DNA from: Limimaricola pyoseonensis
Lineage (GTDB): Bacteria > Pseudomonadota > Alphaproteobacteria > Rhodobacterales > Rhodobacteraceae
DNA: 61,119 nt
Assembly (NCBI RefSeq): GCF_900102015.1
Contig: NZ_FNAT01000013.1
Span: 1 to 61,119, forward strand
Direction: 5' to 3'
Each line of letters begins with the position of its first letter. Within the stretch, counting starts at the first letter, position 1. The translations under genes were made by a program, and so were the position numbers. Below, piece after piece: positions 1-38,749 of the stretch. The notes under the pieces are model-generated. The model did not search any database. It was not told the origin of the DNA and was given only the letters and a program-made list of their open reading frames with translations.

Positions 1-1400
1 TAGCCGGTGCCCTGGCCGCGCTTGGAGACGAAGACCTGCTTGGCCTTCCAGACCTCGAGCACCGGCATGCCGGCGATGGGCGAGTTCGGGTCGTCCTGCG
101 CGGCGGGGTTCACGATGTCGTTCGAGCCGATGACGATGGCGACGTCCGTGGTGGGGAAGTCGTCGTTGATCTCGTCCATCTCGAGCACGATGTCGTAGGG
201 CACCCGCGCCTCCGCGAGCAGCACGTTCATGTGGCCGGGCAGCCGCCCCGCCACCGGGTGGATCGCGAAGCGCACGGTCTTGCCCTGCGCCCTGAGCCGG
301 CGGGTCAGCTCGGAGACCGACTGCTGCGCCTGCGCCACGGCCATGCCGTAGCCCGGCACGATCACCACGCTCTCGGCCTCGTCGAGCGCCTGCGCCACGC
401 CCTCGGCGTCGATCGCCACCTGCTCGCCCTCGACCTCCATCGCGGGTCCCGTGCTGCCGCCGAAGCCGCCGAGGATGACCGAGACGAACTTGCGGTTCAT
501 CGCCTTGCACATGATGTAGGACAGGATCGCGCCCGAGGCGCCCACCAGCGCGCCGGTGACGATCAGCAGGTCGTTGCCCAGCGTGAAGCCGATCGCGGCG
601 GCGGCCCAGCCCGAGTAGGAGTTCAGCATCGAGACGACCACCGGCATGTCGGCGCCGCCGATGCCCATGATCAGGTGCCAGCCGATGAAGCCGGCGATGA
701 CAGTGACCAGCACCATGGTCCAGATGCCGGCCCCGGTGAGGTAGAGAAGCCCCAGCGCCACGCAGAGCGCCAGTGCCGCGGCGTTGAGCATGTGGCCGCC
801 GGGCAGCTTCTTCGGCTTGCCGTCGACCCGGCCGGCGAGTTTGCCGAAGGCCACCACGGAGCCGGTGAAGGTGACCGCGCCGATGAAGATGCCCAGGGCC
901 ACCTCGGCCTTCAGGATCGCGATCTCGGCCGCGTCCTTCAGCGCCAGCTTCTTGCCGAAGCCGGTGAGCTCGCCGAAGAAGCCGCCGCCCGCGGCCTGAA
1001 GCTCGTCGGGGTCCAGGAGCGCCAGCGCCGCGCGGTCGAGCCCGAGCCCGGCCAGCGTCGCCTCGATGTCGGCGAGCATGATGTCGGCGTTGAGCCCGAT
1101 GAACACCGCGGCCAAACCGACGAAGCTGTGCAGCGCCGCCACCAGCTGCGGCATCTCGGTCATCTGCACCCGGCCGGCGACGACCCAGCCGGCGAAGCCG
1201 CCGGCGATCACCGCGATCAGGATCAGGAAGAGGTTGTGCACGCCGGGGCCGAACACGGTGGCGGCGACCGCCACCGCCATGCCCGCGATGCCGTACCAGA
1301 CCGCGCGCTTGGCGCTTTCCTGGTTCGACAAGCCGCCCAGCGACAGGATGAAGAGAATGGCCGCGACGATATAGGCGGCCGAGACGATGCCGATGCTCAC
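1..1400 (-). CDS. pntB: NAD(P) transhydrogenase subunit beta, C-terminus cut by window edge
   Basis: Reading the minus strand from a GTG at 1400 gives about 466 residues of an open frame running off the left edge. The N-terminal half is hydrophobic with many membrane segments. The C-terminal half is the NADP(H)-binding domain, recognisable by [15 protein letters not shown] and by [13 protein letters not shown] with the following [17 protein letters not shown]. This is the beta subunit of proton-translocating transhydrogenase, which couples proton re-entry to hydride transfer from NADH to NADP+ in the inner membrane. Roughly the last 30-40 residues are missing. It lies 12 bases after the pntA stop and is certainly cotranscribed with it. 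The GTG start is supported by the typical [16 protein letters not shown]-terminus. Confidence 0.95.
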
Positions 1401-1412
1401 GATCCGGCCCCC

Positions 1413-2984
1413 TTACGACTTGCGGAACATGGCGAGCATCCGGCGCGTGACCAGGAAGCCGCCGACGATGTTGATCGAGGCGATCAGCACCGCGATGAAC
1501 GAAAGCAGCACCACGAGGAAACTGCCCGAGCCGATCTGCAGGAGCGCGCCGAGGATGACGATGCCCGAGATCGCGTTGGTGACCGCCATCAAGGGCGTGT
1601 GCAGCGAGTGGCTGACGTTCCAGATCACCTGGAAGCCGACGAAGCAGGCCAGCGCGAAGACGATGAAGTGGCTCATGAAGCTCGCCGGCGCCACCGCGCC
1701 CAAAAGCAGCATCACCGCGCCGCCGGCGGCCAAGAGCGTCACCTGGCTGCGGGTCTGGGCGCGGAAGGCCGCGACCTCCTGGCCGCGCTTTTCCTCGGCC
1801 GTCAGCTCGCGCGGCTTCTCCTTCTTCGGCGCCGCGGCGATGGCCGCGGTCCTGGGCTTGGGCGGCGGGTAGGTGATCTCGCCCGCATGGGTGGCAGTGG
1901 CGCCGCGGATCACGTCGTCGTCCATGTCGTGGTCGACGACGCCGTCCTTGCCCGGCGTGAGATCAGCCAGCATGTGGCGGATGTTGGTGGCGTAGAGCGT
2001 CGAGGACTGCGCCGCCATGCGCGAGGGGAAGTCGGTGTAGCCGACGATGGTGACGCCGCCCTCGGTGACGAACTTGTCGTCCGGCACGGTCAGCTCGCAA
2101 TTGCCGCCGCGCTCGGCGGCGAGATCGACGATCACCGAGCCGGGCTTCATCGCCTCGACCATGTCCTTCGTCCACAGCACCGGCGCGTCGCGGCCCGGGA
2201 TCAGCGCGGTGGTGATGACGATGTCGGTCTCGGGCGCGAGCTCGCGGAACTTGGCGAGCTGCTTTTCGCGGAACTCAGGCGAAGACGGCGCGGCGTAGCC
2301 GCCCGTCGCCGAGCTGTCCTGCGTGTCCTCGAAGTCGAGGAAGACGAACTCGGCGCCCATGCTCTCGATCTGCTCGGCCACCTCGGGGCGCACGTCGAAG
2401 GCCTGCACCTGCGCGCCGAGCGAGGTCGCGGTACCGATCGCGGCGAGGCCCGCCACGCCCGCGCCGATCACCAGCACGCGGGCGGGCGGCACCTTGCCCG
2501 CGGCCGTCACCTGCCCGGTGAAGAAGCGGCCGAAATTGTTGCCCGCCTCGATCACCGCGCGGTAGCCGGCGATGTTGGCCATCGACGACAGCGCGTCCAT
2601 CTTCTGCGCCCGGGAGATGCGCGGCACCATGTCCATCGCGATCACCGTGGCGCCGGCGTCCCTGGCGCGGCCCAGCGCTTCGGCGTTCTGGCCCGGGTAG
2701 AAGAAGGAAATGAGCGTCTGGCCCTCGCGCAGGCGGCCCAGCTCGTCCTCCAGCGGCGGCCGCACCTTGGTGACGATCTCCGCCTCGGCCCAGAGCGTCG
2801 CGGCATCCGCCACGACGGTGACACCGGCCGCCTCGTAGGCCGCGTCGGTGAACCCCGCCGCCAGGCCCGCCCCCGCCTCGACCAGGCAGTCATGCCCCAG
2901 CTTCTGCAAGTCCCGTGCCGAGGCCGGCGTCATCGCCACGCGCGACTCGCCGGCCGCCACTTCGCGTGGCGCTCCAATGATCAT
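1413..2984 (-). CDS. pntA: NAD(P) transhydrogenase subunit alpha (fused alpha1-alpha2 form)
   Basis: 523 residues. Residues 1-370 form the NAD(H)-binding domain I, with [17 protein letters not shown] at the N-terminus and the Rossmann motif [18 protein letters not shown]. The C-terminal 130 residues contain several hydrophobic segments, the membrane part that in some alphaproteobacteria is a separate PntAB chain. The fused length matches the E. coli PntA layout (about 510 residues). The start ATG at 2984 is preceded by GGGAGG about 12 bases upstream. The gene is first in a pntAB operon; a promoter lies in the AT-rich spacer upstream. NADPH made here is also the natural partner for the F420H2:NADP oxidoreductase encoded on the other side of that spacer, but a functional link is only inference. 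Confidence 0.95.
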
Positions 2985-3044: not shown

Positions 3045-3074
3045 ACTATCCGCGTTGTTTTATCTAGTAGTCAA
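3045..3074 (-). promoter_or_regulatory. Predicted sigma70-type promoter for pntAB
   Basis: On the minus strand TTGACT (3074-3069) is followed after 18 bases by GATAGT (3050-3045), a five-of-six and a four-of-six match to the consensus boxes. Transcription would begin near 3038, giving a leader of about 55 bases to the pntA ATG at 2984. Prediction from sequence only. Confidence 0.45.
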
Positions 3075-3140: not shown

Positions 3141-3163
3141 CATTAGGTTTTTTTGACCTGATG
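3141..3163. promoter_or_regulatory. Imperfect inverted repeat upstream of the F420 operon (candidate operator)
   Basis: CATTAGGT (3141-3148) and ACCTGATG (3156-3163) are inverted copies with one mismatch, separated by a 7-base T-rich centre. The repeat sits in an AT-rich spacer (about 3050-3181) that contrasts sharply with the surrounding GC-rich genes, 60 bases before the cofG start. It could be a regulator site or, in RNA, a short hairpin with a six-U loop. A TATAAA that could serve as a -10 box lies at 3127-3132, but I see no convincing -35 for it. Confidence 0.4.
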
Positions 3164-3222
3164 CTAAAAATAGTTTTGACAAGACGCGCCGGGATCGCTC
3201 AGCCTTGAGGCAGGAGGAGATC

Positions 3223-4365
3223 ATGACCAGCCACTTGCCCAGCACCGGCGGGATGCTTGCCGCTTCCGGGGATCTCGACGCCCTGATGGCCAGCGCCCGA
3301 CAGATCCGCGACGCGGCCTGGGGCCGCCGGGTCACCTATTCGCGCAAGGCCTTCGTGCCGCTGACCAACATGTGCCGCGACACCTGCGGCTACTGCACCT
3401 TCGTCAAGCACCCCTCATCGCCCGAGGCGCGGATCATGACCCCCGAACAGGTTCTGGCCGAGGCGCGGCGCGGCGAGCGCGAGGGCTGCAAGGAGCTGCT
3501 GTTCAGCCTCGGCGAGAAGCCCGAGCTGCGCTACGAGGCCGCCCGCAAGGGGCTGGAACGGCTGGGATACTCCAGGCTCACCGACTACCTGCGCGACATG
3601 TGCGCGCTGGTGCTGCGCGAGACCAGCCTCTTGCCGCATGTCAATGCCGGCACGCTGACCGACGACGAGATCGACCTGCTCAAGCCGGTTTCGGCCTCGA
3701 TGGGCATGATGCTCGAGACCGTGAGCCGCCGCCTGACCCGCAAGGGACAGGCGCATTTCGCCTGCCCCGACAAGACGCCGGTGCAGCGGCTGCGCACGCT
3801 GGAGCGCGCGGGCCAGAAGCGCGTGCCATTCACCACCGGGCTGCTGATCGGCATCGGCGAGACATGGGAGGAGCGGATCGAGGCGCTGCGGGCGATCGAG
3901 GCCGCGCACGCCCGGCACGGCCACGTGCAGGAGGTCATCATCCAGAATTTCCAGCGCAAGCCCGACATCGCCATGGCGCATCACCCCGAGCCCGAACTCG
4001 AGGACATGCTGCGCACCATCGCGGCGGCGCGGGTGATCCTGTCGCCCGAGATTAGCCTGCAGGCACCGCCGAACCTGAGCGCGCGCCACATCGCCTATCT
4101 CGATGCCGGCATCAACGACTGGGGCGGCATCTCGCCCGTCACCATCGACTTCATCAACCCGCAGCACGAATGGCCCGAGATCCGGGCGCTGGCCGAATCC
4201 TGCGAGACGGCCGGCTTCGCGCTGCGCGAGCGGCTCACCGTCTACCCCAGATACCTCGCCGGCGACGAGGGCTTCATCAACCCGGCCGTGCGGGCCCGGG
4301 CGCTCGGCATGGCCGGGGGCGAGGGGCTGGCGCGCGAGCAGCGGCACATCGGAGAGACAGCATGA
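3223..4365 (+). CDS. cofG: 7,8-didemethyl-8-hydroxy-5-deazariboflavin (FO) synthase subunit CofG
   Basis: 380 residues, radical SAM enzyme. The cluster motif CRDTCGYCTF places cysteines 51, 55 and 58 in the CxxxCxxC arrangement of the FO synthases. CofG performs the second radical step of forming the deazaflavin chromophore FO of coenzyme F420, acting on the tyrosine-ribityl-uracil adduct made by CofH. The start at ATG 3223 is chosen over an upstream in-frame TTG at 3205 because AGGAGG lies at 3212-3217 with ideal spacing. The stop overlaps cofH as ATGA (4362-4365). Separate cofG and cofH genes, rather than a fused fbiC as in actinobacteria, is the arrangement of archaea, cyanobacteria and proteobacteria. 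Confidence 0.95.
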   Translation: MTSHLPSTGGMLAASGDLDALMASARQIRDAAWGRRVTYSRKAFVPLTNMCRDTCGYCTFVKHPSSPEARIMTPEQVLAEARRGEREGCKELLFSLGEKPELRYEAARKGLERLGYSRLTDYLRDMCALVLRETSLLPHVNAGTLTDDEIDLLKPVSASMGMMLETVSRRLTRKGQAHFACPDKTPVQRLRTLERAGQKRVPFTTGLLIGIGETWEERIEALRAIEAAHARHGHVQEVIIQNFQRKPDIAMAHHPEPELEDMLRTIAAARVILSPEISLQAPPNLSARHIAYLDAGINDWGGISPVTIDFINPQHEWPEIRALAESCETAGFALRERLTVYPRYLAGDEGFINPAVRARALGMAGGEGLAREQRHIGETA

Positions 4366-5633
4366 CCTACCAGTCGAAGACCCGGCAGTTCGCCCGTGAC
4401 CCCGCCGCCCCGGCCGGGGCCTCGCCCGCCATCCGCGCCATCCTCGACAAGGCGCTTGCGGGCGGCGAGGTGAGCGTTGAGGAAGGCGTCGCGCTGTTCC
4501 GCGCCGAGGCAGGCGACATCGACGCGATCTACCGCACCGCCGATGAACTGCGCCGCCGCGCCAATGGCGACCGCGTGAGCTTCGTCGTCAACCGCAACAT
4601 CAACTTCACCAACATCTGCTACATGGGCTGCCGGTTCTGCGGCTTCGCCAAGCGGGCCGAGGACAAGGCCGCCGAGTGGCTCGAGCCCGAACAGATCGTC
4701 GCGCGCGCGCAGCAGGCCTGGGATCGCGGCGCCACCGAGGTCTGCATTCAGGGCGGGCTGCATCCGAAGATGGAAGGCACCTACTACCGGGAGATCATCC
4801 GCGCCATCAAGACGGCGCTGCCGGGCATGCACATCCACGCCTTCTCGCCCTTCGAGATCTGGTACGGCGCGTCCAAGACCAAGATGTCCTACCGCGACTT
4901 CCTGACCGACCTGAAGGAGGCGGGGCTCGATTCCATGCCCGGCACCGCGGCCGAGATCCTCGACACCGAGGTCCGGATGCAGCTCACCACCAACAAGCTC
5001 TCGGCCGAGCGCTGGGTCGAGATCATCCGCACCGCGCACGAGGTCGGCATCCCGACCACCGCCACCATCATGTACGGCCATGTCGACGCGCCCGAGCACT
5101 GGGCCGCGCATATCGCGCTCCTGCGCGACATCCAGAAGGACACCGGCGGCTTCACCGAGCTGGTGCCGCTGTCGTTCGTGCATACCGACTCACCGCTCTA
5201 CGCCCAGATCCCCGACAAGGTCCGCCCCGGCCCGACCGCGCGCGAGGTCGACCTGATGCACGCGGTGTCGCGGATCATGCTGCATGGCTGGATCGACAAC
5301 ATCCAGGTGAGCTGGACCAAGCTCGGCGCCGCGCGAGCGCAGGAGATGCTGACGCGCGGGGTCAACGACCTCGGCGGCACGCTGATGAACGAGAGCATCT
5401 CGCGCGCGGCCGGATCCGACCACGGGCAGGAGATCACGGCGCGCGAGCTGGTGCGGATGATCCGCGCCGCCGGCCGTGTGCCTGTGCGCCGCAACACGGT
5501 CTACGAGACGCGCGAGGTGTTCGAGCATCACGACCCCGAGGAGCTGGCGCCGCTGGTGGACCGCAAGGGCCGCGACCCGCTGGCCTTCCTCGAGATGTTC
5601 CCCGAACCTGCCCCGGCGGAGGCGGCCCGATGA
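4362..5633 (+). CDS. cofH: FO synthase subunit CofH (5-amino-6-(D-ribitylamino)uracil-L-tyrosine 4-hydroxyphenyl transferase)
   Basis: 423 residues, radical SAM enzyme with CYMGCRFCGF (Cys86, 90, 93) as the 4Fe-4S/SAM motif, preceded by NRNINFTNIC as in known CofH and FbiC C-halves. It joins a tyrosine-derived fragment to the riboflavin precursor 5-amino-6-ribitylaminouracil, the first step of FO synthesis. The ATG at 4362 overlaps the cofG stop by four bases, implying translational coupling. It also overlaps cofD by four bases at its end. An open frame extends upstream inside cofG, but conserved similarity begins only after this ATG. Confidence 0.95.
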   Translation: MTYQSKTRQFARDPAAPAGASPAIRAILDKALAGGEVSVEEGVALFRAEAGDIDAIYRTADELRRRANGDRVSFVVNRNINFTNICYMGCRFCGFAKRAEDKAAEWLEPEQIVARAQQAWDRGATEVCIQGGLHPKMEGTYYREIIRAIKTALPGMHIHAFSPFEIWYGASKTKMSYRDFLTDLKEAGLDSMPGTAAEILDTEVRMQLTTNKLSAERWVEIIRTAHEVGIPTTATIMYGHVDAPEHWAAHIALLRDIQKDTGGFTELVPLSFVHTDSPLYAQIPDKVRPGPTAREVDLMHAVSRIMLHGWIDNIQVSWTKLGAARAQEMLTRGVNDLGGTLMNESISRAAGSDHGQEITARELVRMIRAAGRVPVRRNTVYETREVFEHHDPEELAPLVDRKGRDPLAFLEMFPEPAPAEAAR

Positions 5634-6586
5634 GCCCGCGCAAGGTCTGCCTGATCGCCGGCGGGGTCGGCGGCGCCAAGATGGCCGAGGGGCTCGCGGC
5701 CCATGACGACGTGGCGCTGTCGGTGATCGGCAACGTCGCCGACGACGACAGCTTCCACGGGCTCTGGGTCTCGCCCGACATCGACACGCTGACCTACAGC
5801 CTCGCCGGGCGGATCGACCGCGCGCAGGGCTGGGGCGTGGCCGACGAGGGGCACCGGGCACTGGAAACGCTGAAGCTCTTTGGCGCCGACACCTGGATGT
5901 CGCTGGGCGACCGCGATTTCGGGCTGCACATCCACCGCACCATGCGGCGCGCGCGCGGCGACCGGCCCTCCGACATCGCCCGCGACGTGGCGCGCGCCTT
6001 CGGCGTGAGGCCCGCGATCCTGCTGCCGACCGACGACGTGGTGCAAACCAGGATGCGCACCACCGACGGCCGCTGGCTGCGGTTCCAGGAATACTTCGTG
6101 CGCGAGCGCTGCGCCCCCGAGATCCGCGAGATCGCCTTCACCGGCCTCGACATGGCGCGGCCCACGCCAGAGGCGCTGGCCGCCATCGCCGCGGCCGATC
6201 TGATCGTCATCGCGCCGTCGAACCCGCTGGTCAGCATCGCGCCGATCCTCGGCGTGCCGGGGATAGGCGACGCGCTGCGCGCCGCCACCGCGCGCAAGGT
6301 CGCGGTCAGCCCCTTCATCGATGGCCGGGTGGTCAAGGGCCCGGCCGACCGGATGATGGCCGCGCTCGGGCTGCGGGCCGATGCGCTCGGCGTGGCGCGG
6401 CGCTACCGCACGCTGGTCGACCGGCTGGTCATCGACCATGCCGACGCGGCGCTGAGCGCCGAGATCGCCGCCGAGGGCCCTACCCCGCATTGCAGCGACA
6501 TCATGATGCAGACCCAGGCCGACAAGGCCCGGCTGGCGCGCGAGATCATCGATCTGGCCTTCGCCCCGGCGGAGGCGGCGGCATGA
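5630..6586 (+). CDS. cofD: 2-phospho-L-lactate transferase CofD (FbiA-type)
   Basis: 318 residues, normal family length. The N-terminal GGVGGAKM (11-18) and the following NVADDDSFHGLWVSPDIDT are the hallmark nucleotide and FO binding segments. GDRDFGLHIHRT and IAPSNPLVSIAPIL are also typical. The enzyme transfers a phospho-lactyl, phosphoenolpyruvyl or 3-phosphoglyceryl group from the GDP-activated donor made by CofC onto FO, giving F420-0 or a variant of it. Which donor is used cannot be read with confidence from sequence. Four-base ATGA overlaps on both sides (5630-5633 and 6583-6586) keep it tightly coupled to cofH and cofC. Confidence 0.95.
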   Translation: MSPRKVCLIAGGVGGAKMAEGLAAHDDVALSVIGNVADDDSFHGLWVSPDIDTLTYSLAGRIDRAQGWGVADEGHRALETLKLFGADTWMSLGDRDFGLHIHRTMRRARGDRPSDIARDVARAFGVRPAILLPTDDVVQTRMRTTDGRWLRFQEYFVRERCAPEIREIAFTGLDMARPTPEALAAIAAADLIVIAPSNPLVSIAPILGVPGIGDALRAATARKVAVSPFIDGRVVKGPADRMMAALGLRADALGVARRYRTLVDRLVIDHADAALSAEIAAEGPTPHCSDIMMQTQADKARLAREIIDLAFAPAEAAA

Positions 6587-7230
6587 GCGGCGCGGGCAAG
6601 CGCCTCGCGGTGATCCCCATGAAGGATCCGCGCCACGCCAAGACCCGGCTGAGCTTCGCCCTGTCGGACGGGCAGCGCGCGCGGCTGGCGCTCGGGTTGT
6701 TCCGGGCCACCGCGGCGCGGCTGCGCGAGGCGGCCGACGGGCTGGAGGCGCAGGTGGACCTCGCCGTCGTCACCGGCAGCCCGGTCATCCGCGACGTCGC
6801 CGCCGCGCTCGGGCTTCGGGTGATCGACGATGACGGCGCGGGCGCGCTGTCGGGCGCGGTCGAGACCGCCGCCCGCTGGGCCGAGCGGCGCGGCTACGAG
6901 GCGCTCTGCGTCCTGCCGGGAGACCTGGCCGACCCCGATCCGGCCGAGCTGGCGCGGCTGCTGGCCTTCCCGATCGGGGGCGATGCGGCGGTGATCTGCC
7001 CGGCCAAGGATCTCGGGACCAACGCGCTGATGGTGCCGCTGCCCTGCCCCTTCGGCTTCGCCTACGGGCCGAAATCCACCGTCGCGCATCGTCGCGCGGC
7101 CGAGGCGGCGGGGCTGCGGCCGGTGGTGATGCCGCTGGCGAGCCTGCGCGTCGACATCGACACGGCCGCCGACCTGCACCACCTGCCCGCGGGCCATCTG
7201 GGCCGGCGGCGGCTGGAGGGCGCGCAATGA
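6583..7230 (+). CDS. cofC: 2-phospho-L-lactate (or related 3-carbon acid) guanylyltransferase CofC/FbiD
   Basis: 215 residues. The N-terminal [14 protein letters not shown] (11-24) is the nucleotide-binding loop of the CofC family and [10 protein letters not shown] is the metal/nucleotide site. The enzyme guanylylates the three-carbon phosphoacid to give the donor used by CofD. Family members from different bacteria use 2-phospholactate, phosphoenolpyruvate or 3-phosphoglycerate; the choice here is unknown. The gene overlaps cofD and cofE by ATGA at each end. Residue content (very rich in Ala and Arg) is like its neighbours, so nothing suggests recent import of this gene alone. Confidence 0.92.
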
Positions 7231-8000
7231 GCCTTTCCGTCTCGCTGACCGCCATCCCCGGCATCCCCGACATAAGCGAGGGCGACGACCTCGCCGCGAT
7301 CATCGGCGACCGGCTCGAGGCGGCGGGCCTCGGGCTCTGCCACGGCGACATCCTCTGCGTCGCGCAGAAAGTGTTCTCCAAGGCCGAGGGCTGCATCATC
7401 CCGCTCGATACGGTCACGCCCTCGGACGAGGCGCTGCGCTACGCCGAAGAGCTCAACAAGGACGCCCGCAAGGTCGAGGTGGTGCTGCGCGAAAGCAGCC
7501 GCGTGGTGCGCGCCTTCCGCCGCCCCGACCAGAACGAGGGCACGATGATCTGCGAGCACCGGCTCGGCTTCATCTCGGCCAATGCCGCGGTGGACGAGTC
7601 GAATTTCGGCGAGGAGAGCGCCGTGATGGTGCTGCCGCCCGACCCGGATGCCAGCTGCGCGGCGCTGCGCGTGGCGCTGGCCGAGCGCTTCGGCGCGCAG
7701 ATCGGCGTGGTGATGACCGACACCTTCGGCCGGCCCTGGCGGCTGGGCCAGGTCAACGTCGCGATCGGGCTGTCCCAGGTGCCCGCCACGATCCGCGAGC
7801 AGGGCAAGACCGACGCCTGGGGCCGGCCGCTGCAGGTGACCGAGCCCGCGCTCGCCGACGAGATCGCCGCCGCCTCGGGGCTGGTGGTGCGCAAGGACGG
7901 CAAGACCCCGGCGGTGCTGCTGCGCGGGCTCGACTGGACGCCGGCCGAGAGCCGCGGCGCCGACATCCTACGCCAGAAACAAGAGGACATGTTCAGATGA
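7227..8000 (+). CDS. cofE: Coenzyme F420-0:L-glutamate ligase CofE
   Basis: 257 residues, the single-domain form. [11 protein letters not shown] near the N-terminus, the central [16 protein letters not shown] and [21 protein letters not shown] are diagnostic. It adds glutamate residues to F420-0 using GTP. In mycobacteria this domain is fused to a nitroreductase-like domain (FbiB) that reduces the dehydro form of F420-0; no such domain is present here. If this organism uses phosphoenolpyruvate as donor, a reductase would have to be encoded elsewhere; alternatively the donor is saturated (3-phosphoglycerate or 2-phospholactate). ATGA overlaps with cofC and npdG. Confidence 0.95.
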
Positions 8001-8665
8001 CAATCGCGATCATTGGCGGCACCGGGCCGCAGGGCCAGGGTCTCGCGCTGCGCTTCGCGCGCGCCGGCGTCGAGGTGGTGCTGGGCGGCCGCGACGGCGT
8101 GCGCGCCGCCGCCATCGCCGAGGAGCTGCAGGCGCAGCTGCCCGCAGACGCCGCGAAGATCCGCGGCCTCGACAACGAAGGCGCCACCGCCGCCGCCGAG
8201 GAAATGGTGATCCTCGCCGTCCCCTTCTCGGCCCACAACGCGACGCTTCAAGCGCTCAAGCCCGCGCTGGCCGGCAAGATCCTCGTCGACATCGTGGTGC
8301 CGCTGGCCGAAGGCGACCCCAAGAAGGTCGCCATGCCGCCCGAGGGCTCGGCCACCGAGGCGGCGCAGGCGCTTCTGGGCCCCGAGATCCCGGTGATCGG
8401 CGCGCTGCACAACGTCTCGGCGGTGACGCTGAAGGCGCTCGACCAGACGATCAACTGCGACATCCTCGTCTGCGGCAACAGCTTGGATGCCCGCAAGAAG
8501 GTGATCGATCTGGTGCGCAAGCTCGGCGTCGAGGCCTACAACGCCGGCGACGCGCAATCGGCGCGCTGCATCGAGGCGATCACCCCGATCCTGATCCGGC
8601 TGAACATCTCGAAGGCCGTGCCTTTCAGCCATGCGGGCATCCGCATCTGCCCGCCCGACCACTGA
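7997..8665 (+). CDS. npdG: F420H2:NADP oxidoreductase (NpdG/Fno type)
   Basis: 222 residues. The Rossmann motif [11 protein letters not shown] (7-17) followed by GGRD is the NADP-binding start of the Fno family, and [11 protein letters not shown] with the C-terminal [20 protein letters not shown] fits the F420-binding part. It moves hydride between NADPH and F420, so it would supply reduced F420 to the oxidoreductase encoded next. Its ATG overlaps the cofE stop (7997-8000), which is the fifth ATGA junction in a row. Presence in the synthesis operon means cofactor production and reduction are made together. Confidence 0.93.
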
Positions 8666-8706: not shown

Positions 8707-9747
8707 ATGGAATTCGGCATCTGCTTCAAGGGCTTCGTCGAGCCCGAGCGCGCCCGCGCGCTGGTCCGCCAGGCCGAGAACGCCGGCTTCGACTATTGCT
8801 GGTTCTACGACAGCCACATCCTGTGGCGCGAGAGCTTCGTCGCCATGGCGATGTGCATGGAGCACACCACCCGCATGCGCTTCGGCCCGCTGGTGACCAA
8901 CCCCAACTCGCGCGAATGGTCGGTCGCGGCCTCGCTGTTCGGCTCGCTCGCCAAGCAGTCGAATGGCCGCTTCGACATCGGCCTCGGCCGCGGCGACAGC
9001 GCGGTGCGCGTCATGGGCAAGAAGCCGTCCACGCTGAAGCGCCTCGAGGAGTTCACCCATGTGGTGAAGGCGCTCATTCGCGGCGAGGAGGTGCAGTACG
9101 GCGAATGCCCCGAGCCGGTGAAGTTCCCCTGGGCCGACGGCTACGAGCTGCCCGTCTGGATCGGCGCCTACGGCCCGAAGGCGCTGGCCTCCGCGGGCCG
9201 GGTCGGCGACGGCGTGGTGCTGCAGATCGCCGAGCCCAAGATCGTCAAATGGTTGGCCGACCAGGCCAAGACCGCCGGGACCGAGGCCGGGCTCGACATG
9301 TCGGGCTACAAGGTGATGGCCGCGGCCCCCGCCCATACCGGGCCGATCGACGAGGCGATCGAGAAGGTGAAGTGGTTCCCCGCCATGGTCGGCAACCACG
9401 TCGCCGACATCGTCGAGAAATACGGCGCCGACAGCGACCAGGTGCCCTCCTCGCTCACCTCCTACATCGAGAACCGCAAGGGCTACGACTACTCCAAGCA
9501 CGGCCAGAGCGATAACCCGTATCTCGACTTCATCACCGAGGACATCATCAAGAGCTTCTGCGTGCTGGGCACGCCTGAAGAGCACGTCGCCAAGATCCGC
9601 GAGCTCGAGGAGGCCGGCACGACGCAGTTCAACATCTATCTCGACAGCGGCGACGAGGAGAAGATCATCGCCGATTACGGCCAGACGGTGATCCCCGCCT
9701 TCCGCGAGAAGGCCGGCAACGTCACGCCGCTCAAGGCCGCCTCCTGA
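8707..9747 (+). CDS. Putative F420-dependent luciferase-like (LLM) oxidoreductase, CPS_4043-like family
   Basis: 346 residues, TIM-barrel fold of the luciferase-like superfamily, related to methylene-tetrahydromethanopterin reductase. Visible features are the N-terminal FGICFKGFVEPERA, the FDYCWFYDSH segment, GRFDIGLGRGDSAVRVMGKKP (phosphate-binding part of the cofactor site) and the C-terminal GTPEEHVAKIRELEEAGTTQFNIY. From memory it fits the family named after Colwellia CPS_4043, described as often the only F420-dependent LLM protein in proteobacteria and of unknown function. It starts 41 bases after npdG behind GGGAGGAGA, so it is probably in the same transcript and is the likely client of the cofactor. 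Substrate unknown. Confidence 0.85.
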   Translation: MEFGICFKGFVEPERARALVRQAENAGFDYCWFYDSHILWRESFVAMAMCMEHTTRMRFGPLVTNPNSREWSVAASLFGSLAKQSNGRFDIGLGRGDSAVRVMGKKPSTLKRLEEFTHVVKALIRGEEVQYGECPEPVKFPWADGYELPVWIGAYGPKALASAGRVGDGVVLQIAEPKIVKWLADQAKTAGTEAGLDMSGYKVMAAAPAHTGPIDEAIEKVKWFPAMVGNHVADIVEKYGADSDQVPSSLTSYIENRKGYDYSKHGQSDNPYLDFITEDIIKSFCVLGTPEEHVAKIRELEEAGTTQFNIYLDSGDEEKIIADYGQTVIPAFREKAGNVTPLKAAS

Positions 9748-9930
9748 GGCCTCCCCCGCGCGTCAGAACGCCGACCGGCGGGCAGCCCACCCTGCCCGCC
9801 GGGACCGCCGGCCCGGACCGTGCACGCCCGATCCGCACACCGGACGCGTCATGGCCGCCGCTCTGGCCTTGCCCTTGCAGTTGTGCGATAGGGCACCCGG
9901 ATTGACCCATAGGCGGGAGCTGGACGGCGC

Positions 9931-10554
9931 ATGGCACGCATGGCGGGGACCAAACCCAAGACCCGGATCCAGCGCAAGAACACCGAGCAGATCCTTGGCG
10001 CCGCGCTCGAGGTCTTCGCCCAGCACGGCTCCTCCGGCGCCTCGATCAACATGATCGCCAAGACCGCCGGGCTGACCACGCCGAACCTGCTCTATTACTT
10101 CGAAAGCAAGGACGCGATCCGGCGCGAGCTTCTGTCGCGCACGCTGCAGCTGTGGATGTCGCCGCTCAACATGCTCAGCCCCAATGGCGAGCCGGTCGAG
10201 GAGATCTGCCAGTACATCCGGCGCAAGCTCGACATCTCCAAGAACTTCCCCAAGGAGAGCAAGTTCTTCGCCAACGAGATCCTGAGCGGCCTGCCGCAGT
10301 CCCGCAGCGAGATCTTCGAGCCGCTGAAGGAGCTCTACAACGCCAAGATCGCGGTGCTCGAGAACTGGATCGCCGAGGGCCGCATCGCGCCGGTCGACCC
10401 GCATCACCTGCTCTACTCGATCTGGGCGACGACCCAGCACTACGCCGATTTCGACGTGCAGATCGAGGAGATCGCGCCCGAGAAGTCGAAGGACCGCTTC
10501 GCCGAGGCCGAGGCCTTCCTGATCGAGATGTACCGCAAGCTTCTCGCGGTCTGA
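9931..10554 (+). CDS. TetR-family regulator, RutR-like
   Basis: 207 residues. The helix-turn-helix lies at about 39-57 (INMIAKTAGLTTPNLLYYF). The C-terminal domain closely resembles that of RutR, the pyrimidine regulator of E. coli: WMSPLNML, YIRRKLDISKNFPKESKFF and IAPVDPHHLLYSIWATTQHYADF match the same places. RutR senses uracil or thymine, so this protein may sense a pyrimidine or related ring compound. ATG 9931 is chosen (GGGAG at 9915-9919); a second ATG at 9943 is possible. It lies 183 bases after the LLM gene on the same strand, with no clear promoter or operator visible in between. It converges on the next minus-strand gene after 16 bases. Confidence 0.88.
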   Translation: MARMAGTKPKTRIQRKNTEQILGAALEVFAQHGSSGASINMIAKTAGLTTPNLLYYFESKDAIRRELLSRTLQLWMSPLNMLSPNGEPVEEICQYIRRKLDISKNFPKESKFFANEILSGLPQSRSEIFEPLKELYNAKIAVLENWIAEGRIAPVDPHHLLYSIWATTQHYADFDVQIEEIAPEKSKDRFAEAEAFLIEMYRKLLAV

Positions 10555-10570: not shown

Positions 10571-11617
10571 TCAGCAGCCGATCGCGGCGCAGATCTGGCG
10601 GCGGTAGACGGCGTTGGCCTCGCTGGCCGGCCCCGGGCCCGCCATGGCCGGCGGCGTGCATTCGAGGCTGTAATCCGAGGCCAGCCCGAGATTGACGCAG
10701 GCGCCGATCTCCCAGCCCGGCGGGATGTCGGTCAGGTCGACCTGCTGCCACTTCGGATGGCCGGTCTCCTTGAGATCGGCGAAGCGAGTGAAGATCAGGT
10801 TGGCCATGTCGCGCACCGCGTCGCAGCTGGCCCGGTGATAGGCGTTGCGCCGGGCGTCGTATTCATAGGTCATCAGCACCGCCTTCACCGCGATCGCCGG
10901 CACCTCCTCGGACTGGAACGGGTAGGTGTCCGCGGCAATCCGCGTCGGCTGGTAGACCGCGCCCAGCACGTCGTCCTCGACCGGCAGAAGGTGCCAGCGC
11001 CCGGCGTCGATGCGGTCGTCCTGAAACAGCCGCGTCGGCGCGCCGGCCACGTAGAACAGCGCGTCGATCTCGCCGGCCAGCAGCGCCTCGAGCGCCGCGT
11101 CGGGGCCGATCAGCGCGCGTTCGGCCGGCTGGACGCCGACGATGTCGAGCACCAGCGACGCGGTGAGGAAGGTGCCGCTGTCCTCGACGCCGACCGCGAC
11201 GCGGGCGCCGTCGAGGTCGCCGAGCCCGCCGATCTCGCGCCGGGCGAGGACGTGGATCTCCTCGTTGTAGAGCGGGAAGGCGATCCGCACGCCGCGGATG
11301 GCGCGGGCGATGGCCGGATCGTCGGCGGAATAGGTCTTGAGATATTCCAGCACGTCGCTCTGCACGATGCCGAACTGGGTGTGCGGCCGCTGCCGCACCC
11401 CGATGAAGTTCTCGAGCGAACCCGCGCTTTCGCGCACGTTGAGCGTCAGCCCGCAATTCTGCGCGAGGCCGGCGATGTTGTTGCCGAACTGGATGTAGGT
11501 GCCCGAGGGGCCGCCCGTCAGGATGTTCTTCTCGAACTCCTGAGCCTGCACCGCAAGCGCGGCGCAGGCCAGTCCGGCGGCCGCCACCAGCACGCGGCAG
11601 ATCGAAAGACAGGTCAC
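10571..11617 (-). CDS. TAXI-family TRAP transporter solute-binding protein (orphan)
   Basis: 348 residues with a signal peptide (cleavage near VQAQE, residue 25-26). The mature start ILTGGPSGTYIQFGNNIAGL is the hallmark of the TAXI class of TRAP binding proteins, and GVEDSGTFLTA and AGEIDALFYVAGAP fit the ligand lobes. The C-terminal part carries several cysteines (NLGLASDYSLEC, RRQICAAIGC), unusual for the class. The start is GTG at 11617 with AAGGAG nine bases upstream. No TRAP membrane subunit is nearby, so it either works with a distant one or has a non-transport sensory role. It follows the coiled-coil gene by 16 bases and is surely cotranscribed with it. Confidence 0.85.
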   Translation of the reverse strand: MTCLSICRVLVAAAGLACAALAVQAQEFEKNILTGGPSGTYIQFGNNIAGLAQNCGLTLNVRESAGSLENFIGVRQRPHTQFGIVQSDVLEYLKTYSADDPAIARAIRGVRIAFPLYNEEIHVLARREIGGLGDLDGARVAVGVEDSGTFLTASLVLDIVGVQPAERALIGPDAALEALLAGEIDALFYVAGAPTRLFQDDRIDAGRWHLLPVEDDVLGAVYQPTRIAADTYPFQSEEVPAIAVKAVLMTYEYDARRNAYHRASCDAVRDMANLIFTRFADLKETGHPKWQQVDLTDIPPGWEIGACVNLGLASDYSLECTPPAMAGPGPASEANAVYRRQICAAIGC

Positions 11618-33095: not shown

Positions 33096-33836
33096 TCACC
33101 TCCCCAGATAGACGTCGATGACGTCCTTGTTCGACGTCACGTGATCGAGGCTGCCCTCGGCCAGCACCGAGCCCTCGTGCAGCACCGTCACGCGGCAGTT
33201 CAGCCGCCGCACGAACTCCATGTCGTGCTCGACCACCACCACCGCGCGGGTCTTCGCCGCCTCGACAAGGATCTCGGTGGTCTTCTCGCGCTCGGCGGGC
33301 GTCATGCCGGCCGCAGGCTCGTCGACCAGCAGGAGCTTCGGCTCCTGCGCCAAGAGCATGCCGATCTCCAGCCACTGCTTCTGGCCGTGGCTCAGCTCGC
33401 CGGCCTTGCGCGCCAGATGCGCCGACAGCCCGATCGTGCCCGCCAGCTCGCGCATCCGCTCCATCTCGGCAGGCTTCGGCCGCCAGATCAGCGCCGCGAA
33501 GGGCCCGCGCCGGTTCTTCAGCGCCATCAGCAGGTTGGTCTCGACGCTCTGGTCCTCGAACACGGTGGGCTTCTGGAACTTGCGCCCCACCCCCTCGCGG
33601 GCGATCCGCGCCTCGGAGAGCCCCGTGAGCGACAGCCCCTTCTCGCCCCAGCGCACCGTGCCGCTGTCGGCCCGGGTCTTGCCGGTGACGATGTCCATGA
33701 AGGTGGTCTTGCCCGCGCCGTTCGGCCCGATCACCGCGCGCAGCTCGGCCGGGCCGATGCGGAAGGAGAGGTTGTTGATGGCGCGGAAGCCGTCGAAGCT
33801 CACCGACACGCCGGACACTTCCAGAAGCGACGTCAT
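33096..33836 (-). CDS. urtD: Urea ABC transporter ATP-binding protein UrtD
   Basis: 246 residues. Walker A GPNGAGKTTFMDIVTGKTR, the UrtD-type RKFQKPTVFEDQSVETNLLMAL, signature LSHGQKQWLEIGMLL and Walker B LLLVDEPAAGM are all present. The SHGQKQWLEI form of the signature separates UrtD from LivG. ATG 33836 overlaps the urtC stop by four bases (ATGA). Confidence 0.95.
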   Translation of the reverse strand: MTSLLEVSGVSVSFDGFRAINNLSFRIGPAELRAVIGPNGAGKTTFMDIVTGKTRADSGTVRWGEKGLSLTGLSEARIAREGVGRKFQKPTVFEDQSVETNLLMALKNRRGPFAALIWRPKPAEMERMRELAGTIGLSAHLARKAGELSHGQKQWLEIGMLLAQEPKLLLVDEPAAGMTPAEREKTTEILVEAAKTRAVVVVEHDMEFVRRLNCRVTVLHEGSVLAEGSLDHVTSNKDVIDVYLGR

Positions 33837-35062
33837 GCCTCGGCCTCCTGTTCGCGCAGCGCGCCCGCATCGGGGCCCAGATCCGCGCCGTGCCGGTCGG
33901 CGCCGCGGCGGCGCGACCACAAGTCCACCAGACCGCCCAGCCCCTTCGGCGCCAGGAGCGTCACCGCGACGAAGCCCGCGCCGAGCATCACCAGCCACCA
34001 GTCGACCCAGACCAGCCGGACGGGGCCGAGATCGAGGTCGGGCAGCCGCCCGGAGGTGAAGAAGGACGACACGAGGCTCACCGCCACCGCGCCGATCACC
34101 GCGCCGTAGAGCCGCCCGCGCCCGCCGATCGCCACCCAGACCGCGAGGTAGATCGACGCGATCGGCATCATCTCGGCCGGGTTCACGATCCCGGCCTGCG
34201 GGTAGTAGAGCGCGCCCGCCACGCCGGTGATCGCGGCCGAGAGCGTGAAGATCGCGAGCTTGTAGCCCTCGACCGGGTAGCCGAGGAAGCGCACCCGGCT
34301 CTCGTTGTCGCGGATGCCGCGCAGCACCGCGCCGAACTTGCCCGAGACCAGCCACGCGGACAGCAGATAGCCGAGCGCCAGCGCCGCGGCCGAACCCCAG
34401 AGGAACCACAGCGCCACCTCGGCCTGCGGCACGCCCTCCGCGCCGGGGATGTTCTGCAGCCCCGAGAGCCCGTTGTTGCCCCTGAGCCCGCTGTCGTTCT
34501 GAAACAGCCACAGCGCCAGCGCCAGCGTCATCGCCTGCGTCAGGATCGACAGGTAGACCCCGGTCACGCGCGCCCGGAAGGCGAGCCAGCCGAAGACCGC
34601 CGCCAACGCCGCCGGCACCAGCACCACCAGCGCGAGCTGCGCGGCCAGGCTGCCCGAGAAGGCCCAGACCAGCGGGAAGCTGTCAGAGCCCACCACGCCG
34701 AAGATCTGCCCGGCCACGGCGGCGTCGATCTCCGAAGGCGTCGGCGGGATCGGCTGCGCGGCGAGGTTCGCGGTCACCACGTCGCGGGTCCGCGCCGCCA
34801 TCAGCCACATGCCGATCATGTAGCCGCCCAGGCCGAAGAAGGCGATGTTGCCGAGCGACAGGATGCCCGCGTAGCCCCAGACGAGGTCCATGGCGAGCGC
34901 GGCCAGCGCGAGGCAGAGCGTCATGCCCAGCGTCTTGACGAAGCTGGTCGAGAGCCCGCCGCCCATCGCCTCGGAGAAGACCGTGACGGCGAAGACCAGC
35001 GCGAGGATCGCGCCCAGCATCACCGGGACGGAGGGGTTGCGGGAGAGGAACGAGCCGGTCAT
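33833..35062 (-). CDS. urtC: Urea ABC transporter permease UrtC
   Basis: 409 residues, LivM-type membrane protein with about 10 segments. ALAALAMDLVWGYAGILSLGNIAFFGLGGYMIGMWLM is typical, as are RVRFLGYPVEGYKLAIFTLSA and YPQAGIVNPAEMMPIASIYLAVWVAIGGRG. The C-terminal tail is hydrophilic. It pairs with UrtB to form the urea channel. The 31-base gap to urtB has GAGG shortly before the start. Confidence 0.95.
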   Translation of the reverse strand: MTGSFLSRNPSVPVMLGAILALVFAVTVFSEAMGGGLSTSFVKTLGMTLCLALAALAMDLVWGYAGILSLGNIAFFGLGGYMIGMWLMAARTRDVVTANLAAQPIPPTPSEIDAAVAGQIFGVVGSDSFPLVWAFSGSLAAQLALVVLVPAALAAVFGWLAFRARVTGVYLSILTQAMTLALALWLFQNDSGLRGNNGLSGLQNIPGAEGVPQAEVALWFLWGSAAALALGYLLSAWLVSGKFGAVLRGIRDNESRVRFLGYPVEGYKLAIFTLSAAITGVAGALYYPQAGIVNPAEMMPIASIYLAVWVAIGGRGRLYGAVIGAVAVSLVSSFFTSGRLPDLDLGPVRLVWVDWWLVMLGAGFVAVTLLAPKGLGGLVDLWSRRRGADRHGADLGPDAGALREQEAEA

Positions 35063-35093
35063 GCGGCCTCCGCTTGGTTGAGGGGGGACATGC

Positions 35094-37025
35094 TCAGTCC
35101 CCCGCCGCCCGGCCCCTGAGCGCGACGATGCCGCGCGGCCGGAACTGGATGAAGAGGATCACGACGAGGATCATGTAGGTCTGCGCCGCCAGCGTGTTCG
35201 ACGGGTTGGCGGTCTCGATCGCCTTCTGCAGCCCGCCGATCATCGCCGCGCCAGCCAGCGTGCCCCAGATGTTGCCGACGCCGCCCACGACCACGGTCAT
35301 GAAGCTCTGCACGATGTAGTCGGCGCCCATCTCGGAGGTGACCTTGGCGTAGAGCCCGATGGCGACGCCGGCGATCCCGGCGATGCCCGAGCCGAGCCCG
35401 AAGGTCAGCATGTTGACCCGGCCCGGATCGATCCCGGCCGAGGCCGCCATGCCCGGGTTCTGCGTCACCGCGCGGGTCTCGAGCCCGAGCCGGGTGCGCT
35501 TCATCAGGAACAGGAAGAAGCCGAGGAACATCAGCGCCAGCACGAAGATCGCGATGCGGATATGGCTGATGCCGACCACGTCGTTCATGATCCACGCGCC
35601 GCCGAGCCAGTCCGGCGCAGTCAGCGGCCGGGCCTGCGTGCCGAAGGCGATCTTGGCGAGCTGCTGCAGCGCGATCGAGATGCCGAAGGTGGCGAGCAGC
35701 GTCTCCAGCGGCCGGTGGTAGAGATGCCGGATCACCAGCCGCTCCATCGCAACGCCGGCGGCGAATGTCACCACGAAGGCCGCCGGCAGCGCCGCGATCA
35801 GCGACAGCGTCCGGTCGGGCACGAGCTGCTGCACCAGATAGGCGGTGTAGGCGCCCATCATGATGAACTCGCCATGCGCCATGTTGATCACGCCCATCAC
35901 CCCGAAGGTGACGGCCAGCCCGATCGCGGCAAGAAAGTAGATCGATGCGAGCGACAGCGCGTCGAGCCCGAGATCGACGCCCTTCATCGCCGTCACCTTG
36001 GTGTCGATCGCCGCCAGCGCCCGGCGCGCCGCGTCGGTGACGGCGGCGGAGGGCTCGAGGTAGATCTCGTGGAAGCCGTGCGCGGCGAGCGCTGCCTCGA
36101 CCTGCGCCTCGTCCACCCGCGGCGGCACGAGGCCCTGCCCGGCCAGCGCGTCATAGGCCGCGGCCCGCCTGCCCGGATCGCCGAGCTGCGCCACCGGCAC
36201 GCCCGCCACCCTGCCCGCCTCGATATTCGCGGCAAGCGCGTCGCGGATCTGCGCGTCGGTCGGGCGCGGCGGCGCCAGCCCGGCATCGACCAGCATCGCG
36301 TAGGCCGCGGCATGGCCGAAGCCGTCCGCGCCGGGCACCAGCCTTGCGGCGAGATTGCCCTCGGGCGTCTCGCCCGCCGGGCCCGCCACGCGCCGCGTTG
36401 CCAGAAGCGGGTTCAGCGCGCCGCGCGCCTCGACCGAGATGTCGCCCGAGAGCGCCTCGATCGCCGCGACCCGCGCCGCCTCGTCTTCGCCGAAGCGCAT
36501 GGTCAGCAGCCGCTCCAGCCGTTCCTTGCGGGCGGCGATGGCCGGGTCGGTCTCGCCCGCCATCGAGGCGCGCAGCGGCGCCAGCAATTCAGGTTCGGGA
36601 TCGCGCAGGATCGAGTCGAGCCCGGCCATCCGCCTGGCCGGGTCCGGGTCGGTGAGCTGGAAGCTGACCAGCGCCGTGCCCAGAAGCGCCCGGATGCCGC
36701 TGTTGGGCTTGATGCGGTCGAGATCGCCCTCGGGCGCGGCTAGCTCGCCCTCGGGGTCGAGCGGCGCGCCTTCGCCCGCGATCCAGAACCGCCCGGCCGC
36801 GTCGATCGCCAGCGCCTTGTCCTGCCAGGCCCGCAGCACCTGCTGCGCCTGCGGCAGCCCGCTCGTCGCCACCGCCTCGATCGCCGGGGCGATGGTGCGG
36901 CGCGAGCTTTCCTCGATCAGCGCCCGGTTCCGCTGCAGCAGGTCCTGCATCGGCCCGGCCGCCGCCGTTCCGGCGCAGAGCGCCAGCGCCAGCACGCCGA
37001 GCGCGCGCCTCGTCATCCGTCTCAT
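35094..37025 (-). CDS. urtB: Urea ABC transporter permease UrtB with long N-terminal domain
   Basis: 643 residues, longer than many UrtB proteins (about 520-550). A signal peptide (1-24) precedes a helical, soluble N-terminal domain of about 330 residues; the LivH-like permease core runs from about 355 to the end (FGVMGVINMAHGEFIMMGAYTAYLVQQ, TLLATFGISIALQQLAK, VTQNPGMAASAGID). Within the N-terminal domain, residues about 239-267 and 288-316 are related copies at a 49-residue period (the pairs GLAPPRPTDAQI and GLVPPRVDEAQV). It forms the inner-membrane urea pathway with UrtC. Start ATG 37025 is the first Met of the signal peptide. Confidence 0.93.
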   Translation of the reverse strand: MRRMTRRALGVLALALCAGTAAAGPMQDLLQRNRALIEESSRRTIAPAIEAVATSGLPQAQQVLRAWQDKALAIDAAGRFWIAGEGAPLDPEGELAAPEGDLDRIKPNSGIRALLGTALVSFQLTDPDPARRMAGLDSILRDPEPELLAPLRASMAGETDPAIAARKERLERLLTMRFGEDEAARVAAIEALSGDISVEARGALNPLLATRRVAGPAGETPEGNLAARLVPGADGFGHAAAYAMLVDAGLAPPRPTDAQIRDALAANIEAGRVAGVPVAQLGDPGRRAAAYDALAGQGLVPPRVDEAQVEAALAAHGFHEIYLEPSAAVTDAARRALAAIDTKVTAMKGVDLGLDALSLASIYFLAAIGLAVTFGVMGVINMAHGEFIMMGAYTAYLVQQLVPDRTLSLIAALPAAFVVTFAAGVAMERLVIRHLYHRPLETLLATFGISIALQQLAKIAFGTQARPLTAPDWLGGAWIMNDVVGISHIRIAIFVLALMFLGFFLFLMKRTRLGLETRAVTQNPGMAASAGIDPGRVNMLTFGLGSGIAGIAGVAIGLYAKVTSEMGADYIVQSFMTVVVGGVGNIWGTLAGAAMIGGLQKAIETANPSNTLAAQTYMILVVILFIQFRPRGIVALRGRAAGD

Positions 37026-37046
37026 GGCATGTCCCGCCCGTTCTGG

Positions 37047-37073
37047 GGCCGGGGACGCGACGCGCCCCCGGCC
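37047..37073. terminator. Hairpin between urtA and urtB
   Basis: GGCCGGGG (37047-37054) and its exact complement (37066-37073) form an 8-bp GC stem with an 11-base loop in the short gap after the urtA stop. As in the other importers of this window, it probably protects the binding-protein mRNA or partly stops transcription. Confidence 0.5.
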
Positions 37074-37082
37074 GGTCGCGCG

Positions 37083-38369: not shown

Positions 38370-38749
38370 GTCACTGTCTCCCGCGGGACGCGCCGTCGGC
38401 ATTGCCACGCAGGGCCGCCGCAACTAACTCATGTCCCGCAACTTCTGTTGCACCCGGTGGCGGCCGTCGTCAGCGCCAACTTTCGCGGCCGTCACCACCC
38501 TCTCCCCCGCACCGGGTCTGCGCCGCGTTCGCCGGGGACGCCTCCTGCATCCGGAATGCCGCACCCGACGGCAACCGCCACGCCGCAGCGCGGGGCGCCC
38601 CGTCGCGCATTGCCCGATCTTTGGGCGCTTCGCCCCGCCCCTGCCGAATTTCGCGCCAGTCGCCGCCGGAACGGGCGGCCGCCCGGCGCGACTCGTGGCG
38701 TTTCGCGCCCCGCCGCCTGTAGCCCGGTGTCGACAAGGGAGGACGCACC
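38370..38749. other. Divergent urt/ure intergenic region
   Basis: 380 bases between urtA and ureD with no convincing gene. It must hold the promoters for both operons. I found no good sigma70 or sigma54 match. The one symmetric element I see is GCAAC-TTCT-GTTGC (38438-38451), about 70 bases before the urtA start, with another GCAAC at 38420-38424. Nitrogen control of urea genes is usual in this group, so an NtrC-type site is worth testing. The rest is GC-rich with many short complementary runs. Confidence 0.5.

Follow-up and report, generated by a model that had tools for sequence, protein, structure and literature searches.

A predicted F420H2-dependent pyrimidine reductase encoded with an F420 operon and a RutR-like regulator in Limimaricola and relatives

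Related systems and the F420 locus

Reductive pyrimidine catabolism by PreTA, PydA or DPD offers the closest counterpart to the LLM protein described here, which has the same inferred pathway position, ahead of dihydropyrimidinase, and lies in clusters or regulons with RutR-like regulators. The proteins themselves differ. PreA is a dihydroorotate-dehydrogenase-type protein for which no sequence relation to the LLM was seen, and PydA is described as carrying FMN and [4Fe-4S] clusters (PMC7332683), whereas the LLM consists of one luciferase-fold protein, with F420H2 as its proposed hydride donor.

Two further reports are the nearest published work (PMC12507026, PMC10714638). The putative F420/FMN oxidoreductase NpsU/SSGG-03002, a dihydro-mureidomycin/napsamycin reductase, is genetically needed for uracil C5-C6 reduction; according to that account, knockout of SSGG-03002 stops this reduction in mureidomycins, and in-vitro assays of the protein failed (PMC10714638). 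It belongs to antibiotic biosynthesis and acts on a uridyl peptide or intermediate; the likeness to the LLM drawn here is one of description. The F420-dependent yanthine reductase of Chloroflexota is likewise a luciferase-family protein, described as replacing a flavin-type reductase in a reductive N-heterocycle pathway; it differs in serving a purine pathway in another phylum, and is itself presented as a proposal (PMC12507026). Among the matches listed by our literature search, which lay mostly outside subscription journals and preprints, no paper assigned uracil catabolism to the TIGR03842 family.

The window, that is, the whole stretch of DNA analysed (61,119 bp), makes up one complete contig, C19. 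The genome totals 3.9 Mb across 20 contigs, and its nearest named relatives belong to Limimaricola. It contains the following features.

3..1400, minus strand: pntB, NAD(P) transhydrogenase beta subunit, truncated where the window and contig begin (open frame; tblastn 71% to Leisingera PntB)
1413..2984, minus strand: pntA, transhydrogenase alpha subunit (NF006942, 808 bits, cut-off 383)
3059..3074, no strand: candidate operator TTTATCTAGTAGTCAA in the pntA-cofG divergent promoter, proposed from the comparison of loci below
3153..3168, no strand: second candidate operator, about 70 bp 5' of cofG, a weak 11/14 match to the presumed RutR consensus
3223..4365, plus strand: cofG, FO synthase subunit (TIGR03550, 456 bits, cut-off 213, frame scored from 3205; start chosen by ribosome site)
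4362..5633, plus strand: cofH, FO synthase subunit (TIGR03551, 510 bits, cut-off 374)
5630..6586, plus strand: cofD, 2-phospho-L-lactate transferase (TIGR01819, 267 bits, cut-off 257)
6583..7230, plus strand: cofC, guanylyltransferase (TIGR03552, 137 bits, cut-off 105)
7227..8000, plus strand: cofE, F420-0:glutamate ligase (TIGR01916, 232 bits, cut-off 181)
7997..8665, plus strand: npdG, NADPH-dependent F420 reductase, proposed F420H2 source (TIGR01915, 189 bits, cut-off 150)
8707..9747, plus strand: LLM, 346 aa, proposed F420H2-dependent uracil/thymine reductase (TIGR03842, 504 bits, cut-off 295)
9931..10554, plus strand: RutR-like TetR regulator, 207 aa, proposed uracil-sensing repressor of the operon (TIGR03613, 200 bits, cut-off 368)

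The truncated pntB and pntA are thus divergent from cofG-H-D-C-E-npdG, which is followed by the LLM and the TetR gene. Neighbouring frames from cofG to npdG overlap by 4 bases each, given ATG starts, and a gap of 41 bases leads to the LLM, whose ribosome site is GGGAGGAG. The original prediction had placed the LLM right after the F420 cofactor operon and ahead of a RutR-like regulator, an arrangement that profile scores and gene order confirmed. Elsewhere on the contig, a TAXI-family TRAP solute-binding protein gene lies right after the TetR gene on the opposite strand (10571-11617, minus). Genes for branched-chain-type ABC transport, including a Peripla_BP_5 binding protein (33833-38423, minus), and a urease alpha subunit gene (40842-42551, plus), on the same contig as the F420 operon, probably represent another nitrogen-scavenging system. 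The gene at the contig end (58375-61098, minus) encodes 907 aa and combines Calx-beta, DUF4214 and RTX calcium-binding repeats.

The LLM exceeded the curated cut-off of TIGR03842 (F420_CPS_4043) by a wide margin. The original prediction took the proteobacterial clade of this family to lack an assigned function, and the family's NCBI model is a 'hypothetical equivalog' that names no reaction. All other matches of the LLM were to LLM/Mer-type and Bac_luciferase models, and no homology to PreA was seen among them. A PF00296 profile search of the window's genome returned five proteins including the LLM; the matched stretches of the other four fit best to alkanesulfonate-, Atu2307-, MupA- and MsnO8-type models, the first two scoring below those cut-offs. 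The view that the LLM is the only F420-type oxidoreductase visible therefore holds among the genome's luciferase-family proteins, the class that this search covered.

The best solved relative of the LLM, by sequence and by fold, is Mer (8qpl; predicted LLM structure with pLDDT 86, 28% identity, TM ~0.8). Mer requires its catalytic Glu6, as the E6Q variant is reported to retain 0.4% of kcat (PMC11094777). That position is occupied in the LLM family by Cys (41/70), Thr (28/70) or Val (1/70), and the window's protein falls below the Mer cut-offs (TIGR03555, 129 versus 349 bits; NF002619, 135 versus 276 bits). The absence of Glu6 in all 70 proteins, together with these scores, ruled out a Mer-like C1 function. 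Two other residues are invariant across the 70 proteins: D97, aligned with Mer Asp96, and Q173, aligned with position 178. In a modelled ternary complex, Asp96 is described as touching the pyrimidine part of the pterin; the residue given there as Gln178 (PMC11094777) is Asn by our count along the jMer chain, both being carboxamides. It is plausible that D97 and Q173 hold a free pyrimidine ring against the deazaflavin.

Gene neighbourhoods and co-occurrence with PreA and hydA

To compare the settings of the LLM we used the best 80 of 330 loci with relatives of it. At least three cof genes were present in 75 of these 80 loci, npdG in 72 and a RutR-like gene in 46, and 40 carried one or more genes for HydA, a Zn hydrolase, an NCS1 permease or an aminotransferase in the examined flank. 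Orthologues were thus often found near dihydropyrimidinase, NCS1 and Zn-hydrolase genes, the neighbourhood expected from the original prediction. On Leisingera plasmids, the genes pntA-pntB-aminotransferase-Zn hydrolase-dihydropyrimidinase-NCS1-DUF1330 (as annotated) are divergent from cofGHDCE-npdG-LLM-TetR, and in Limimaricola cinnabarinus the aminotransferase-to-DUF1330 genes are contiguous with the F420 operon with no pntAB between. The HydA, omega-aminotransferase (AptA), NCS1 and carbamoylase-family proteins all scored above their model cut-offs. A small DUF1330 gene repeatedly accompanies the F420/pyrimidine genes, in Leisingera, Limimaricola and Paracoccus alcaliphilus (L036 5193-5486, L137 12475-12762, L038 14083-14373).

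The layout varies by lineage, being upstream and divergent or downstream and co-directional, with or without the aminotransferase, which argues against inheritance of a single layout alone. On a Streptomyces plasmid, an LLM 45% identical to that of the window begins 11 bases downstream of a dihydropyrimidinase gene (554 bits, cut-off 393), and an aminotransferase and a carbon-nitrogen-hydrolase-type amidase are encoded a few kb upstream. Since this amidase is not the proteobacterial Zn enzyme, the cluster appears to be an independent assembly of this pathway.

In the Roseibium cluster examined (Roseibium aggregatum, L157), which has a different gene order and no npdG match, an FGD above its cut-off replaces npdG (4159-5193, minus); only L157 was examined for this gene, and a similar cof order occurs in L085, L087, L103, L111, L118 and L122. 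A Caballeronia sp. SBC2 plasmid (L040 12001-16000) has only LLM residues 205-336 (74% identical), adjoining a Zn hydrolase, an alanine dehydrogenase and pntB, and is probably a decayed copy of the set. A record titled Nocardioides marinus DP1N28-1 (L054) contains an F420/LLM/TetR set resembling that of Leisingera (67-99% identity by gene, 99% for the LLM), and its organism label or assembly looks wrong.

We then profiled the presence of PreA and hydA at the genome level; the tables for the window's-family, 15-kb hydA linkage and Marinomonas counts were entered by hand from listings. Across 198 genomes of the window's family, TIGR03842 was above cut-off in 9, PreA was found in 168 (E <=1e-80; 165 of them above the curated cut-off) and hydA in 177. 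PreA occurred in 2 of the 9 LLM genomes versus 166 of the 189 others (Fisher 2.8e-5, kinship ignored), and both of the former belong to the window's genus. Fourteen genomes had hydA without PreA, six of which carry the LLM; the remaining eight have neither PreA nor LLM and include four that are less than 90% complete (G008, G068, G119, G157) and four at 95% or above (G102, G150, G160, G176). Given such genomes, another first step may exist.

A second set comprised 48 LLM genomes from 50 chosen of the 80 loci (L104 and L121 absent), mostly named isolates and including three MAGs (L067, L092, L093). PreA was absent from 33 of the 48 and hydA was present in 47, lying within 15 kb of the LLM in 28. 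The 15 that do have PreA comprise Limimaricola, Leisingera and other roseobacter genomes plus one Roseibium, and the F420 set is a second set there. Ten of the 33 PreA-lacking genomes had no hydA within 15 kb of the LLM. Eight of these were examined at hydA, and all eight place a RutR-like gene and a Zn hydrolase with hydA, some also an aminotransferase; preTA was not found within 20 kb around hydA, and these regions are PreA-less pyrimidine clusters. One LLM genome (L122) has neither hydA nor PreA. Paracoccus denitrificans DSM 413 carries the F420/LLM cluster, and PreA was not found in its genome. A Rut-type oxidative route was dropped because RutA was detected in only 1 of 49 LLM genomes.

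The strongest pattern came from 48 genomes of one genus (the family of G342), judged to be Marinomonas by coordinates identical to those of the Marinomonas genomes in the set of LLM genomes. PreA was found in 0/48, and the LLM in 24; hydA was present in all 24 genomes with the LLM versus 1 of the 24 without it (Fisher 1.6e-12, kinship ignored), one hydA match (G628/G661) being partial. The lone exception (G648) has a contig that begins at cofC of the same cluster, and cofE, npdG and LLM would lie past its end. For this genus, these searches reveal no candidate other than the F420 cluster for supplying dihydrouracil to HydA. The genome sets overlap (G107=G586, G108=G609, G042=G624), and Marinomonas genomes recur in both. 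Overall, LLM and PreA tend to exclude each other, and the distribution points to the LLM as a non-orthologous replacement of PreTA/PydA in the reductive pyrimidine pathway.

Regulator and candidate operators

The TetR gene product has a TetR_C_3/YcdC domain, and its best NCBIfam models were the two RutR models, both of whose cut-offs it missed (200 and 166 bits against 368 and 230). The regulator's ligand domain had been said to match RutR, the uracil/thymine sensor; the protein proved RutR-like, with the uracil contacts intact, and the missed cut-offs led us to drop the reading as a plain RutR orthologue. RutR of Escherichia coli is described as holding uracil by Q171, Y97 (via water), W167, W77 and Q179 of the other subunit, and its operator as a 16-bp palindrome (PMC10891134). 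W77, Y97, W167, Q171 and Q179 were all kept in 68 of 68 RutR-like proteins beside LLM or hydA clusters, including that of the window, in a sample picked by similarity, with repeated genomes and no negative control set. In 20 of the 68, again including the window, Lys52 of the DNA-reading helix is replaced by Thr; these are from Limimaricola and Leisingera loci, L054, Thalassovita, Tritonibacter, Epibacterium, Paracoccus denitrificans and L141.

For the operator search we scored 14 positions of what we take to be the RutR consensus. Sites matching at least 13 of the 14 positions numbered 30 in 2.08 Mb of loci (26 with each genome position counted once) versus none in the control, which was one mononucleotide shuffle per locus. 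They lay 5' of cofG (12), cofD (3), the LLM (1), RutR-like genes (9) or Zn hydrolases (3), with 2 elsewhere. Lowering the threshold to 12/14 gave 81 sites, 22 of them elsewhere, versus 4 in the shuffle. The E. coli rut region contained only one site, with 3 mismatches, no more than expected by chance. In two MAGs (L092 and L093) the F420 operon is unlinked to hydA, yet perfect RutR-type sites lie 5' of cofG, and the regulon thus joins what the gene map leaves apart.

The RutR-type candidate site of the window itself is the weak 11/14 match listed above. With up to 3 mismatches allowed, the window has more sites than chance predicts, in coding DNA too (6 seen versus 0.49 expected). Similar versions of the 3059-3074 motif occur, about equally far from cofG, in most loci of Limimaricola and Leisingera. 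Together with the Lys52 change, this recurrence suggests that the operator is shifted in these two genera, a further likely difference from RutR.

Proposed pathway and alternative readings

We consider it very likely, from the sequence comparisons above, that the LLM is an F420H2-dependent pyrimidine reductase catalysing the first step of uracil catabolism. The original prediction that the F420 investment serves a pyrimidine-related reaction gained support from the neighbourhoods, the co-occurrence, the regulator residues and the operators, and can be sharpened to a proposed reduction of uracil and thymine. Uracil, and probably thymine too, would enter via the NCS1 permease, and the LLM would reduce the 5,6 double bond with a hydride taken from F420H2, giving dihydrouracil. 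HydA would open the dihydrouracil ring, the carbamoylase-family Zn hydrolase would cleave N-carbamoyl-beta-alanine, and the omega-aminotransferase would take beta-alanine. PntAB would make NADPH, likely as the supply for NpdG, which would spend it in reducing F420. The RutR-like repressor would free the F420 operon when uracil is present, providing the cofactor on demand. The chemistry and its direction, the substrate of each enzyme and the induction are all predictions from gene content. The reported dependence of uracil C5-C6 reduction in mureidomycins on SSGG-03002 offers a genetic precedent for this chemistry (PMC10714638). NpdG is reported to run mainly towards F420 reduction in bacteria (PMC8498797). 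Because NpdG (or FGD in Roseibium) would make F420H2 and the genome has no other F420-type LLM, the LLM should be a reductase.

Another ring could be the substrate within the same catabolic cluster, for example hydantoin, a 5-substituted uracil, a dihydropyrimidine or a purine-derived dioxo ring, with HydA acting as a hydantoinase and the Zn hydrolase as a carbamoylase. HydA scores as TIGR02033 (named D-hydantoinase), and the top model of the Zn hydrolase is named allantoate amidohydrolase, its hydantoinase/carbamoylase model also being passed. The Chloroflexota luciferase-family protein is proposed as an F420-dependent reductase of 2,8-dioxopurine (PMC12507026), and the presence of both PreA and the F420 set in some roseobacters would fit different substrates. 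We nevertheless regard another ring as unlikely, as the regulator retains the uracil-binding site and most LLM genomes keep hydA without PreA, no other uracil reductase being visible to these searches.

It is still less probable, to the point of being very doubtful, that F420 and the LLM serve an unrelated reduction of a xenobiotic or in stress, the pyrimidine link being a matter of regulation alone, given that F420 derives from a pyrimidine precursor. This would account for the 40 of the 80 loci (best 80 of 330) that have no pyrimidine gene in the examined flank; part of them, not all, reach contig ends early, and others lack any such gene across 10 kb to either side. Against it stand the near-strict co-occurrence of hydA and the LLM in the 48 Marinomonas genomes and the linkage in several layouts, Streptomyces included. 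The luciferase superfamily is described as containing both FMN and F420 enzymes (PMC6279831), but an LLM that uses FMN and follows the cof genes incidentally is highly improbable and was dropped on the cof linkage of the 75 loci, the best family and fold relatives of the LLM also being F420 enzymes.

The window's own genus counts against the proposed uracil/thymine reduction by the LLM. The window's genome (G000) encodes its dihydropyrimidinase and Zn hydrolase sets on contigs C13 and C18, with the hydA copies off the window's contig. Contig C13 carries aminotransferase, Zn hydrolase, hydA, NCS1 and DUF1330 genes 81-89% identical to those of Leisingera. Contig C18 encodes a further set of the standard kind, preT-preA-TetR-Zn hydrolase-hydA, with a 13/14 RutR operator (L138 3143-10360); the two HydA copies are 72% identical. 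PreA was also found in all five other Limimaricola genomes examined, which makes the F420 route redundant there. The F420 set in the window's genome may serve thymine, another pyrimidine or another condition.

More broadly, it is probable that an Fe-S-free, F420H2-dependent dihydropyrimidine reductase forms a further class of first-step enzyme and chiefly accounts for F420 production in many alpha- and gammaproteobacteria, with a uracil-sensing repressor switching that production on and off and an actinobacterial branch doing likewise. If true, this would give the TIGR03842 family a function and F420 a metabolic role in aerobic Proteobacteria, and a basic nitrogen-scavenging pathway would run on a single hydride-transfer enzyme instead of a complex iron-sulfur flavoprotein.
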